Origin: Streptomyces sp. NBC_01498
GTDB lineage: Bacteria; Actinomycetota; Actinomycetes; Streptomycetales; Streptomycetaceae
DNA: 64,000 bases
Direction of reading: 5' to 3'
NCBI RefSeq assembly: GCF_036327775.1
Contig: NZ_CP109598.1
Span: 1,860,001-1,924,000 of the forward strand
Shown: one piece after another, positions 3,253 through 8,670 of the stretch
How positions within the stretch are numbered: position 1 is the first letter of the stretch
Layout: every line of letters starts with the position of its first letter
Position numbers and translations under genes: made by a program
Notes under the pieces: generated by a model
The model's database searches: none
What the model saw: only the letters and a program-made list of their open reading frames with translations
What the model was told of the DNA's origin: nothing

Positions 3253-4764
3253 TCAGCCCTCGGCGCCCAGCCGTTCCAGGATCAGCTCGCGGACCCGGGC
3301 CGCGTCCGCCTGCCCCCGGGTGGCCTTCATGACCGCGCCCACGAGCGCGCCGGCCGCCGCGACCTTGCCCGCGCGGATCTTGTCGGCGATCGCCGGGTTG
3401 GCGGCGATCGCCTCGTCCACCGCCGTACCGAGCGCGCCCTCGTCGGAGACGACCTTCAGTCCGCGCTTGTCCACGACGGTGTCCGGGTCGCCCTCACCCG
3501 CGAGGACGCCCTCCAGGACCTGCCGGGCCAGCTTGTCGTTGAGGTCGCCCGCCGTGACCAGTTCCGCCACCCGGGCGACCTGCGCCGGGACGATGGGGAG
3601 CGCCGCGAGGTCCGTGGACGTCTCGTTGGCGTGGCGCGCCAGCTCACCCATCCACCACTTGCGGGCCTGGTCGGCGGGGGCGCCCGCCTCGATCGTGGCG
3701 GTGATCAGGTCGACCGCGCCAGCGTTGAGCATCGACTGCATGTCGTGTTCCGACACGCCCCACTCCTCGCGCAGCCGGTTGCGGCGCACCCGGGGCAGTT
3801 CGGGCAGCGTGCCGCGCAGCTCCTCCACCCAGGCGCGGGCGGGCGCGATCGGGACGAGGTCGGGCTCGGGGAAGTACCGGTAGTCCTCGGCCTCCTCCTT
3901 CACCCGGCCGGACGTGGTGGAACCGTCCTCCTCGTGGAAGTGCCGGGTCTCCTGGATGATCGTGCCGCCGCCGTCGAGGACCGCCGCGTGCCGCTGGATC
4001 TCGTAACGGGCCGCCCGCTCCACGCTCCGCAGCGAGTTGACGTTCTTCGTCTCCGAACGGGTGCCGAACTTCTCCCGGCCGTGCGGGCGCAGCGACAGGT
4101 TGACGTCGCAGCGCATCTGGCCCTGCTCCATCCGGGCCTCGGAGACGCCCAGTGCCTTGATCAGCTCGCGCAGCTCCGCCACGTACGCCTTCGCGACCTC
4201 CGGCGCGCGTGCTCCGGCTCCCTCGATCGGCTTGGTGACGATCTCGATGAGCGGGATGCCGGCGCGGTTGTAGTCGAGGAGGGAGTGCGAGGCGCCCTGA
4301 ATACGGCCGGTGGCGCCGCCGACGTGCAGCGACTTCCCGGTGTCCTCCTCCATGTGGGCGCGTTCGATCTCCACCCGGAAGATCTCGCCGTCGTCCAGCT
4401 GGACGTCCAGATACCCGTTGAAGGCGATCGGCTCGTCGTACTGGGAGGTCTGGAAGTTCTTCGGCATGTCCGGGTAGAAGTAGTTCTTCCGGGCGAACCG
4501 GCACCACTCCGCGATTTCGCAGTTCAGCGCGAGGCCGATCTTGACGGCGGACTCCACACCGATGGCGTTGACGACCGGAAGCGCTCCCGGCATGCCGAGA
4601 CAGGTCGGGCAGGTCTGCGAGTTGGGGTCGGCGCCCAGCTCGGTCGAGCAGCCGCAGAACATCTTCGTCCGGGTGCCGAGTTCGACATGGACCTCCAGGC
4701 CCATGACGGGGTCGTACGTCGCGAGGGCGTCCTCGTAGGACACCAGAGTCGTTGTGGCGGTCAC
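3253..4764 (-). CDS. gatB: Asp/Glu-tRNA amidotransferase subunit B
   Basis: GatB (503 aa) with GatC and GatA converts misacylated Glu-tRNA(Gln) and Asp-tRNA(Asn) to Gln-tRNA(Gln)/Asn-tRNA(Asn). GatB recognises the tRNA and activates the carboxylate. Diagnostic stretches are [15 protein letters not shown] near the N-terminus, the Zn-type cysteines in [10 protein letters not shown] and [26 protein letters not shown], and the C-terminal YqeY-like tail with [21 protein letters not shown] chose the GTG at 4764 ([19 protein letters not shown]) because it matches the usual Streptomyces start and overlaps the TGA of the preceding DUF4276 gene (GTGA). The longer frame to 4809 would run into that gene. 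An AAGGAG lies about 11 bases upstream, inside the DUF4276 gene. gatB is thus coupled to the inserted cassette, not directly to gatA. Confidence 0.97.
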
Positions 4765-5354
4765 AGAAAACGCAACTCCTTCAAGGCAGCTGTCAGTTCG
4801 GCGCACCACATCTGGTACGCGGGAAGGGTTCGGAGGCGGTCCAGATCAATTCGTTCGCCGAGGAACTCGGCCAGTTCCCGGCTGTCGCCGCCCGGCAGGA
4901 CCTGGGCGAGGAGTGCTTTGGGGTCCGCGGTCCTCTCGATGTCACGCGCGTCGGCGGGGACGCACGCCGGTGTCACTCCGGGCAGCGAGCGGAGCAGGTG
5001 ACCGTCGGCGAGCAGCCATGCCTCCGTCTCCCGCACCGGGACCACCGGGACGATGCGGCAGTGGGACGGCAGCACGACGTCCTGGCGGATCTTCTCGATC
5101 TTGTTTCGCTCCCGGTGGTCGTTGTGGATCAGCAGCAGGTCGCAGTCCCCGGCGAGGTCGGCGGCCTCGGCGCAGATCTGCTCGTGCGCGGTACGGGCGG
5201 TGCTGTACCGGCTCCGCAGGGGGGTGTCGCTCACGTCAAAGGGGTCGTCGTGCCGCGCGGTCAGCTGCTTGAGCTGGCGTACGGCGACGGTGCTCAGGAA
5301 TATCTCGTCCTCGGGGCCCTCCGCCAGAATCCCGACCGTCAGGTACCGGCTCAC
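4761..5354 (-). CDS. DUF4276 family (Toprim-like) protein of an ATPase cassette
   Basis: A 197-aa protein with the DUF4276 pattern: [19 protein letters not shown] at the N-terminus (conserved Glu of 'EGxTE/D'), [15 protein letters not shown] near residue 75 (position of the Toprim DxD strand, here HND), and [15 protein letters not shown] around 105-120, the most typical DUF4276 signature. DUF4276 proteins are predicted Toprim-fold nucleases/effectors that pair with AAA_15/AAA_21-type ATPases in phage-defence modules (AbiL/PARIS-like logic). It overlaps the upstream ATPase by ATGA and the downstream gatB start by GTGA. The defence role is an inference from family and pairing; the acidic DxD motif is incomplete here, so activity may be altered. 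Confidence 0.85.
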
Positions 5355-6532
5355 CGGCCGCCTGCCTGGGCGGTCTCCAGATACTGGCGCGCTTCCCGCT
5401 CGGGGACGTACGTGCCGCGCTCCCCCGATTCGGCCAGGGGGCGGATCCGGCTGTGCCGCGAGGGGGCCTCACCGCCGCCGACCCTGGTGACGGTGTCGGT
5501 GAACAGCACGTCGCCGGGGTGCTCCGGGTAGACGGCGGCCAGGACGACCGGGGAGTGCGTGGTGACGATGATCTGCTGGAGCGTCTCCGGGCCGGTGCAG
5601 CGGCGGAGCCGTCGTGCCAGCTCTTTGACCTGGCCGGGGTGCAGACCGTTCTCGACGTCCTCGATCATCAGCGTGGAGCAGCGATTGAACGTGCCCTCCC
5701 GGAGGCCGCGGTCGTGGGCCGCCACGAGCACCGACAGGACGTGCAGGGTCCCGTCGGAGGCCAGCCGGGCGGGGATGGGCGGCGCGTCCCGGTAAGTCAG
5801 GTCGAGCTCCCAGGTTCCCCTCTCCACGTCGGGGGTCGCACGCAGATCGGTCAGTCCCGGCAGTACGGCGACGGCGTCGGCCTTCAGCAGCAGCGCCTCC
5901 CGGCTGTCGGCTGCCCCTTCGCCGAGCAGACGCCCCAGTACGGCGGCGAGGTTGTGCGCGTCACGGGCAAGGGGCCCGTCGTCGTGGAGATCGGCGTCCA
6001 GCCGTGCCCCACCGGCGTTCGGTGCCAGCCCGTACCACCGGGTGCCAAAACCGGAAACCTTCCCGCCGTTCCGTCGGATCTGGCTCTCCTGCGCCTCGCT
6101 CAGTCCCCAGCGGGCGGGGGCGTCGGGCAGCGGTGTGACGGTTCCTCGCGCGGTGGGAAGCGTCGACGCGTCGTCGCGGGAAATGTGAAGGTCGAGTCTG
6201 AGGTGCCGCAGGCCGCGATCAGGGTCGGTCTGGAGGAAACAGACCGCGATACCGAACCGATTGGCGGCACCGCCCTCCCCGTACCGGTGGAAGAGGTCCA
6301 CGACCCGGCCCCCTCTGCTGCCACCCGGACGGACGTCGGCGGTCAGGTGGGCCTTCCCCTCGGGCGACCATGTGGCGGTGGAATCACGTAGCACCTGCGC
6401 CGCCAGATCCACCGCCTCCAGCAGATTCGTCTTCCCCGAGCCGTTCTGCCCCACCAGCACCGTGAACGGGGACAGGTCGACGGCGCAGTCCCGGAAGGAT
6501 CTGAATCCCTCCAGCTCGATCCGGGTGATCAT
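5351..6532 (-). CDS. AAA family ATPase (AAA_21, RecF/OLD-like)
   Basis: A 393-aa SMC/ABC-like ATPase. Walker A is GQNGSGKTN at about residues 28-36; the N-terminal strand ITRIELEGFRSFRDCAVDL is typical of RecF/OLD-type enzymes. The signature-like segment LASDGTLHVLSVLVA is near 252-266, Walker B STLMIEDVENGLHP at about 286-299, and the H-switch TTHSP near 324. The compact layout matches single-domain AAA_21 ATPases that partner with Toprim/DUF4276 effectors. I prefer the ATG at 6532, which has AAGGGGG about nine bases upstream; a GTG at 6541 is also in frame. It is the first gene of the cassette, separated from the upstream 80-aa gene by an 82-97-bp gap that contains a hairpin. It probably uses ATP to sense DNA or phage structures and license the partner. 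Confidence 0.9.
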   Translation of the reverse strand: MITRIELEGFRSFRDCAVDLSPFTVLVGQNGSGKTNLLEAVDLAAQVLRDSTATWSPEGKAHLTADVRPGGSRGGRVVDLFHRYGEGGAANRFGIAVCFLQTDPDRGLRHLRLDLHISRDDASTLPTARGTVTPLPDAPARWGLSEAQESQIRRNGGKVSGFGTRWYGLAPNAGGARLDADLHDDGPLARDAHNLAAVLGRLLGEGAADSREALLLKADAVAVLPGLTDLRATPDVERGTWELDLTYRDAPPIPARLASDGTLHVLSVLVAAHDRGLREGTFNRCSTLMIEDVENGLHPGQVKELARRLRRCTGPETLQQIIVTTHSPVVLAAVYPEHPGDVLFTDTVTRVGGGEAPSRHSRIRPLAESGERGTYVPEREARQYLETAQAGGR

Positions 6533-6576
6533 TCGTGTCACCCCCTTCCCAGTCCCGTGTCAGTCGTGTGGGCGAC

Positions 6577-6612
6577 CGCGCCGGGGCCTCCGGTCCGAAG
6601 GCCCCGGTCGCG
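6577..6612 (-). terminator. Hairpin separating gatC-gatA-80aa from the ATPase cassette
   Basis: CCGGGGCCT (6581-6589) pairs with AGGCCCCGG (6599-6607), extended by CGCG/CGCG on both sides with one extra base. It stands 12-47 bases after the stop of the 80-aa gene and before the ATPase start. If it terminates transcription, the cassette and gatB need their own promoter. Confidence 0.6.
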
Positions 6613-6623
6613 CGTTGGGCCGG

Positions 6624-6862: not shown

Positions 6863-6866
<4 letters not shown>
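6624..6866 (-). CDS. Small membrane-associated hypothetical protein in gat operon
   Basis: An 80-aa protein (74 aa if the internal ATG at 6857 is used). The GTG at 6866 overlaps the TGA of gatA (GTGA), pointing to translational coupling. The N-terminus is very basic ([20 protein letters not shown]), then come two moderately hydrophobic helices ([12 protein letters not shown] and [19 protein letters not shown]) and an acidic tail [12 protein letters not shown]. It may sit on or in the membrane with two segments. A small protein at this position is, as far as I recall, normal in Streptomyces gat loci. Function unknown. Confidence 0.8.
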
Positions 6867-8368
<1,502 letters not shown>

Positions 8369-8373
8369 GGCTG

Positions 8374-8670
8374 TTAGTCCTCCCCCAGGATCTGCGGCAC
8401 CTTGAAACGCTGCTGTTCCTGGGCCGGGGCTCCGGAGAGCGCCTGCTCGGGGGTGAGCGACGGGCGTACCTCGTCCGCGCGCATGACGTTGGTCAGCGGC
8501 AGCGGGTGGGAGGTCGGCGGTACGTCTTGGTCGGCGACCTCGGATACGCGGGCGACCGCGCCGATGATGTCGTCGAGCTGACCGGCGAAGTGATCGAGTT
8601 CTTCGCCCTTCAGTTCCAGACGCGCCAGCCGTGCGAGGTGGGCGACCTCCTCGCGCGTGATGCCAGGCAT
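8374..8670 (-). CDS. gatC: Asp/Glu-tRNA amidotransferase subunit C
   Basis: A 98-aa GatC, the belt-like stabilising subunit of GatCAB. The start [20 protein letters not shown] at 8670 is the conserved beginning, and the tail [19 protein letters not shown] ... [11 protein letters not shown] is typical. AGAGGA lies seven bases upstream of the ATG. It is the first gene of the gatC-gatA-80aa unit, so a promoter must lie in the 314-bp region upstream (8671-8984). Confidence 0.97.

Follow-up and report, generated by a model that had tools for sequence, protein, structure and literature searches.

Why does a cassette of two genes, one for an ATPase and one for a DUF4276 protein, lie inside the gat operon, and what keeps it there? 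The question is raised by a stretch of 64,000 nucleotides (nt) from Streptomyces sp. NBC_01498 (assembly GCF_036327775.1, contig NZ_CP109598.1, forward-strand positions 1,860,001 to 1,924,000), which is called the window here. According to the open reading frames (ORFs) of the window and a Pfam scan, the minus strand carries, in this order, gatC, gatA, an ORF of 80 amino acids (aa), the ATPase gene, the DUF4276 gene and gatB. This confirms the position of the pair between the 80-aa ORF that follows gatA and gatB, as given in a preliminary description of the sequence.

An answer to which we assign a probability of roughly 0.6 is that the pair is an immune module in the style of the two-gene OLD and PARIS systems, which occupies an exchangeable slot in the gat operon and is anchored there by having captured the start of gatB. 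It is built on what can be seen in the sequences: gene order, overlaps, patchiness, recurrent placement, swaps, fusions, a hypervariable segment and scars of the cassette tail. The parts are of known kinds, in an arrangement that is unusual and informative.

An ATPase and a DUF4276 protein

The cassette consists of the following features.

5351..6541, minus strand: AAA_21 / OLD-type ABC ATPase, 396 aa (Pfam AAA_21, 97 bits; cut-off 27)
6062..6304, minus strand: hypervariable segment of the ATPase, residues 81-160, compared in 40-aa blocks
4761..5354, minus strand: DUF4276 protein, 197 aa, putative metal-dependent (Toprim-like) nuclease, from Pfam and the HEC-01B profile
5351..5354, minus strand: overlap GTGA of ATPase stop and DUF4276 start, read from the sequence
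4761..4764, minus strand: overlap GTGA of DUF4276 and gatB, read from the sequence
4761..4781, minus strand: 3' tail of DUF4276 doubling as gatB start region, with AAGGAG, Shine-Dalgarno-like

Both junctions of the cassette are 4-nt GTGA overlaps. The preliminary description had recognised the one at gatB and had read the other as ATGA.

Relatives of the ATPase start at the position that matches ATG 6532 here, giving 393 aa. The motifs by which an OLD-type ABC ATPase is recognised are all present and conserved, as had been said of them before: Walker A (GQNGSGKT), the Walker B region (IEDVENGLHP) and the H-switch (THSP). When the PDB sequences are searched with the ATPase profile, the OLD nuclease 6p74 comes first, followed by retron ATPases and PtuA, with AriA lower. 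The ATPase thus resembles those of OLD-family nucleases and of retron and Septu systems in sequence, but the effector differs: it is a small DUF4276 protein encoded apart from the ATPase, with a Toprim fold that is only putative.

The DUF4276 assignment, which also dates from the preliminary description, holds. The window protein scores 29.7 bits with the Pfam model, just below the cut-off of 30.2. All 49 sequences of alignment A4, made up of this protein and 48 relatives, match DUF4276 (best 2.2e-16, at E up to 10), and the database protein P0001, 99% identical to it, carries PF14103. Conserved positions include E12, H77, D79, T110, W113 and D117; the motifs E-G-x-x-D and H-x-D are presumably Toprim-like. 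At the H-x-D site, other DUF4276 proteins have D-x-D (L108, L112, L116) or H-x-D (L125). The Pfam family OLD-like_TOPRIM matches weakly, in two of the 49 A4 sequences (E 0.19), and in none of 10 other DUF4276 proteins at E up to 1. Two further DUF4276 genes over the Pfam cut-off occur in the genome of the window away from gat, at G000:C1:4345165-4345743 and G000:C1:5338188-5338736.

The closest likeness to a known system is with HEC-01, a candidate defence system of PADLOC. If PADLOC models are ranked without PADLOC's own cut-offs, HEC-01A is best for the ATPase (190 bits, E 1.6e-56) and HEC-01B for the DUF4276 protein (141 bits, E 1.1e-41). As in the window, the two HEC-01 genes are adjacent and co-oriented. 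The name stands for Hma-embedded candidate (PMC12988326). The window pair lacks the embedding from which the name comes, which is not shown to be required; it is instead flanked by gatA with the 80-aa ORF and by gatB, which it overlaps. According to that paper, which deals with archaeal defence systems, several Hma-embedded candidates, HEC-06 among them, have shown antiviral activity.

Another system of this kind is PARIS (AriA/AriB), of class 4 of the OLD family. Its ATPase and effector are encoded by neighbouring genes and are sometimes fused (PMC10568477). Such natural fusions also exist between ATPase and DUF4276: P0119 (594 aa), one in G130 (591 aa, away from gat) and one in G663 (565 aa, inside gat). 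The effectors differ, AriB in PARIS and DUF4276 here, and the AriB profile is absent among the 15 PADLOC families that match the DUF4276 protein at E up to 1. The AriA model matches the ATPase with 96.5 bits, ranking below HEC-01A and PDC-M07A. The resemblance of the pair to candidate defence modules of ATPase and effector, claimed in the preliminary description, is supported by the HEC-01 matches; the relation to PARIS and Toprim systems is one of similarity.

A literature search, from which subscription journals mostly lay outside so that absence from print is not implied, found no paper mentioning DUF4276, no paper pairing HEC-01 with PADLOC, and no title linking gat genes with such a module. 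For the topics of coupling, essential genes and hotspots, no title on such an arrangement stood among the matches listed, and the titles listed for HEC-01 by itself are all unrelated.

Variation within the ATPase is unevenly distributed. In four pairs of close relatives, block identity is 0.17-0.60 in residues 81-160, 0.45-0.80 in the blocks flanking this segment, and 0.64-1.0 in residues 1-40 and 201 to the end. In all four pairs DUF4276 is better conserved than the ATPase. An ATPase with a hypervariable segment, joined to a more conserved putative nuclease, is the pattern of an immune sensor, and a fast segment within a conserved switch, together with patchiness and the swapping of versions, would be the expected outcome of an arms race.

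Such a module could act as follows. The ABC-type ATPase, as sensor, and the DUF4276 protein, as putative nuclease, would work as one machine, in keeping with the fused relatives. The variable segment would bind the trigger and so sense a phage component. An ATP-driven change would release or activate the DUF4276 protein, which would then cut nucleic acid, either tRNA or DNA, leading to growth arrest.

The interval between gatA and gatB

The first line of evidence on placement is its patchiness. The gatA gene is present in 150 of 150 genomes of the genus. Its distance from gatB, taken from match coordinates in 148 of them (G118 and G137 left out), is 225-382 bp in 147 and 2099 bp in the window; the alternative that every Streptomyces has the pair at this place can be set aside. 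In other genera of the family, 80 loci from 79 genomes, representing most but not all of the other-genus rows among the matches listed, have a gap of -27 to 530 bp and contain neither the cassette nor another gene-sized insert. No other gene-sized insert occurs in 227 cassette-free intervals, of which those 80 form part. A general insertion hotspot at the gat junction is unsupported, given the 147 genus intervals (judged by length only) and the 80 other-genus loci without insert.

The second line is recurrence. A scan of genome contigs with the ATPase found three loci, in Streptomyces sp. 150FB, Tue 6430 and S. physcomitrii (ATPase identity 58-66%), and in each of them the pair follows the 80-aa gene and precedes gatB. 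Further copies come from profile searches of overlapping samples. Matches were found in 12 of 200 genomes of the family, 10 of them gat-embedded including the window (9 of the 137 genomes outside its genus); in 5 of 100 genomes of relatives, all gat-embedded; in 9 of 147 genomes of the order with a broader profile, 5 gat-embedded; and in 23 of 345 genomes of the class with PF14103 (25 loci, 4 gat-embedded). In total there are 21 different gat-embedded loci: the window, 150FB, Tue 6430, S. physcomitrii, and G224, G909, G426, G440, G448, G454, G461, G509, G524, G540, G561, G567, G570, G578, G596, G663 and G852. ATPase relatives at the same site, at 28-44% identity, are found not only in further Streptomyces but also in other genera and in two more families.

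The pair is thus patchy in Streptomyces, as proposed earlier, without being a one-off there. As judged from these sequences, the gatA-gatB site is a slot re-used repeatedly by modules of this kind, across three or more actinobacterial families.

Exchange of versions at the slot is indicated by two trees. The cassette tree holds 28 pairs, 20 gat and 8 non-gat, and its root is not known. Gat-embedded pairs occur in five of its six main groups, and one group of four is wholly non-gat. Fitting the gat label to the tree takes three changes, whereas shuffled labels take 7.2 on average and none of 500 shuffles takes as few. The three changes may reflect one gain followed by escapes. Placing all gat copies in one clade is rejected (p-AU 1.7e-5).

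The tree of gatA and gatB, built from 19 of these loci, largely agrees with the host groups. It rejects a clade of the window, 150FB, S. physcomitrii and G561 (p-AU 1e-77), which form a clade with Tue 6430 in the cassette tree. Likewise, it rejects a clade of G224, G909, G426, G509, G540 and G461 (p-AU 0.0025). In the cassette tree this second set forms a clade once G454 and the non-gat G070 are included; G909 was added to the set because its pair matches the G224 pair at 75% and 90% identity.

The clearest examples are hosts with nearly the same operon. G461 and G440 share 99.2% identity in gatA and 98.6% in gatB, yet only 28% in the ATPase and 32% in DUF4276. G663 and G852 share 98.6% and 97.8%, yet their DUF4276 sequences are 30% identical, and one is fused while the other is not. 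In both cases the flanks, compared in steps of 50 nt, have an identity of 0.94-1.0 as far as the cassette; the exception is the first 50 nt of gatB (0.82), a hint that the opening codons of gatB arrive together with a new cassette. In a wider check the identity of this part of gatB was 0.77 in three carriers, 0.90 in two and 1.00 in G440; in 30 cassette-free loci the mean was 0.94, with two at 0.63. Donor-like first gatB codons in some carriers are suggestive only.

Since near-identical gat operons carry unrelated versions, the site can be regarded as an exchangeable slot. Simple vertical inheritance is rejected by the swaps and the discordant trees, and versions were probably exchanged by recombination through the flanking gat genes. 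Core defence hotspots, such as those of Pseudomonas aeruginosa (PMC10250203), are likewise fixed chromosomal places refilled with immune genes. Unlike these, the gat slot lies inside an operon, holds only this module type in the examined loci, and has an insert that carries the start signal of the next gene.

The same observations bear on a housekeeping role, in which the pair regulates gatB or translation and has no part in defence. Its seat in a translation operon would fit such a role, as would an archaeal OLD-family ATPase that serves cell-cycle progression (PMC12796447). Nevertheless, the lack of an insert in 147 of 148 genomes, the unrelated versions in near-identical hosts and the hypervariable segment make a housekeeping role highly improbable.

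Recurrent placement could also mean a functional tie to tRNA amidation. The effector would act on tRNA-Gln or tRNA-Glu, or the module would monitor GatCAB. An attack on Gln-tRNA, or its shortage, would trigger or limit the module, and GatB made from the same message would balance it. The presence of gat-embedded pairs in five of six tree groups, with one slot repeatedly refilled, favours this, as does the two-gene ATPase-Toprim system PARIS, whose AriB cleaves tRNA-Lys (PMC12409363). It is by analogy with this cleavage, together with the gat address, that tRNA is considered as a target at all. On the other hand, 12 of 28 profile-matched loci lie away from gat genes, and easy recombination through conserved flanks would yield the same pattern. 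Such a tie is unlikely, and it is similarly doubtful that the slot was chosen for what the effector acts on, or for GatCAB as its gauge, with capture of the gatB start serving as the lock.

The start of gatB

The immune-module explanation further proposes that the cassette is held in place by the gene downstream. The host genes of the operon are listed here.

8374..8670, minus strand: gatC, a GatC-like ORF upstream of gatA, identified by eye and position
6863..8368, minus strand: gatA, Amidase PF01425, 527 bits
6624..6866, minus strand: 80-aa ORF, 77 aa if started at the internal ATG 6857
3253..4764, minus strand: gatB, GatB_N 365 bits and GatB_Yqey 141 bits

The genome of the window has one gatB match at E 1e-100 and no GlnRS over the family cut-off, so that gatB is expected to be needed. 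The end of DUF4276 runs exactly 4 nt into gatB in 15 of 20 loci (8 nt in the fusion), and the genes are arranged in this order again in other genera and families; the layout is therefore not a matter of chance.

In eight loci including the window, DUF4276 ends in a KELxFL tail, with AAGGAG placed 11 nt upstream of the start of gatB. The last 24 nt, CTGAAGGAGTTGCACTTCCTGTGA, are identical in four of these loci; the eight are related and do not count as independent events. Other overlapping loci have different purine-rich tails. All eight KELxFL tails use TTG for the Leu that follows AAGGAG. In the rest of these genes TTG makes up 27 of 597 Leu codons, and in those of the window 0 of 72. This conserved codon is a better sign of start-site selection than the GC content at third codon positions, which is a weak one: 0.71 in the tail versus 0.84 in the gene body for 14 overlapping loci, and 0.80 versus 0.85 in 8 non-gat loci.

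Evidence of past cassettes can be provided by scars of the tail at the gatB start, found in two of 109 cassette-free loci scanned. In L195 (G441), decayed sequence matches the end of DUF4276 over at least 25 residues (best E 1.2e-9), which points to the loss of a cassette. In L159 (G394) the 24-nt tail stands alone and may be an old leader shared by chance descent. A search for the tail motif with up to two mismatches, which sees only KELxFL-type scars, found it in one of 159 genus genomes, that of the window. In L207 (G469), the 241 nt that separate the 80-aa gene from gatB hold no recognisable remnant of DUF4276 or ATPase.

With a Shine-Dalgarno-like site in the last DUF4276 codons and a 4-nt overlap, translation of gatB would be expected to depend on the cassette. 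Since there is one gatB and no GlnRS over the cut-off, random loss or silencing of the cassette should be costly. Losses would then be filtered, passing only as replacements or as deletions that spare the tail. The earlier suggestion that the placement makes the pair hard to lose is thus plausible, given the apparent ribosome-binding site of gatB inside DUF4276 and the scars in two cassette-free loci.

A selfish or neutral passenger could be retained in the same manner, by the captured start signal of gatB, and could hitch-hike with gat alleles in homologous recombination. The scars and overlaps, the discordance of cassette and host trees and, suggestively, the donor-like first gatB codons of some carriers would all be explained. 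However, the Walker and DUF4276 motifs are retained over long divergence, and the hypervariable segment is framed by conserved blocks, both of which point to a selected function; copies outside gat are retained as well. A mere passenger is very unlikely.

Upstream of the cassette, the 80-aa ORF overlaps gatA by GTGA and has no Pfam family above cut-off. It lies between gatA and gatB in 29 of 29 cassette-free genus loci (L034-L062) and, by this placement, is part of the normal gat operon. The last feature follows it.

6542..6623, minus strand: cassette leader with GC-rich hairpin, from the 80-aa ORF to the ATPase (fold -46.3 kcal/mol, z -2.89)

Ten cassette-free loci of the genus have no leader-like stretch. 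Among six leaders folded, z is -8.3, -2.9, -2.7 and -2.2 in four and -1.0 and -1.1 in two; strong GC-rich hairpins are those of the window, L063, L086 and L092, with weaker ones in L064 and L065. A hairpin as a general part of the cassette is rejected, as the leader measures only 25-33 nt in five loci and some cassette-free loci of other genera have inverted repeats at its position. The leader hairpins are possible attenuators.

Copies elsewhere and consequences for immune genes

Several observations weigh against an anchored immune module. The gat site is not required for such a module: the two narrower DUF4276 profiles, A3 and A5, both built from gat-embedded sequences, which favours the recovery of such copies, match 28 different loci, of which 16 are gat-embedded and 12 are elsewhere, and in the class sample 21 of 25 PF14103 loci lie away from gat. 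Gat-embedded copies are also rare in the genus sample, in which 9 of 392 genomes have a profile match and 2 of these are gat-embedded. Coupling to gatB is not uniform. There is no overlap in G440 (+62) or in the three f3 genomes (+29), and AAGGAG is confined to the KELxFL tails. As to function, the archaeal cell-cycle ATPase implies that ATPases of this family need not serve defence, and DUF4276 has no credible match among PDB sequences. Finally, a DUF4276 query gives distant relatives at 27-35% identity in three Streptomyces plasmids (NZ_CP108714.1, NZ_CP107984.1, NZ_CP108701.1) and one phage record (MT836135.1), and no relative was found among viral contigs scanned with one pattern.

The 12 loci outside gat are those of G070, G078, G126, G129, G130, G278, G297, G333, G375, G477, G487 and G905, seen with about 1.5 kb on each side for G126, G375 and G905 and in stretches of 12-16 kb for the others. 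In G278 the ATPase match lies some 5 kb from the DUF4276 match. L087 (G129), L088 (G333) and L090 (G130) form one clade near a gene that starts like the M24 peptidase of G333, where a heme oxygenase gene adjoins too (Pfam was run on G333 only); this neighbourhood is possibly a second fixed slot. In G144, a lone AAA_21 ATPase (L102:7384-8643, 31% identical to that of the window) lies directly downstream of gatB and is followed by an MMPL gene, with no DUF4276 match in the 16-kb stretch.

Immune genes are commonly thought to be quickly lost and regained. Here, an immune module seems to be anchored because a gene that is expected to be essential takes its translation start from it, while its seat is refilled with unrelated versions. 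This offers a testable model for the anchoring of immune genes in core operons. Further slots could be found by a simple route, namely by looking for 4-nt overlaps onto core genes and for tail scars. The arrangement also raises a directly testable question, whether the module targets the tRNA made by its host operon.

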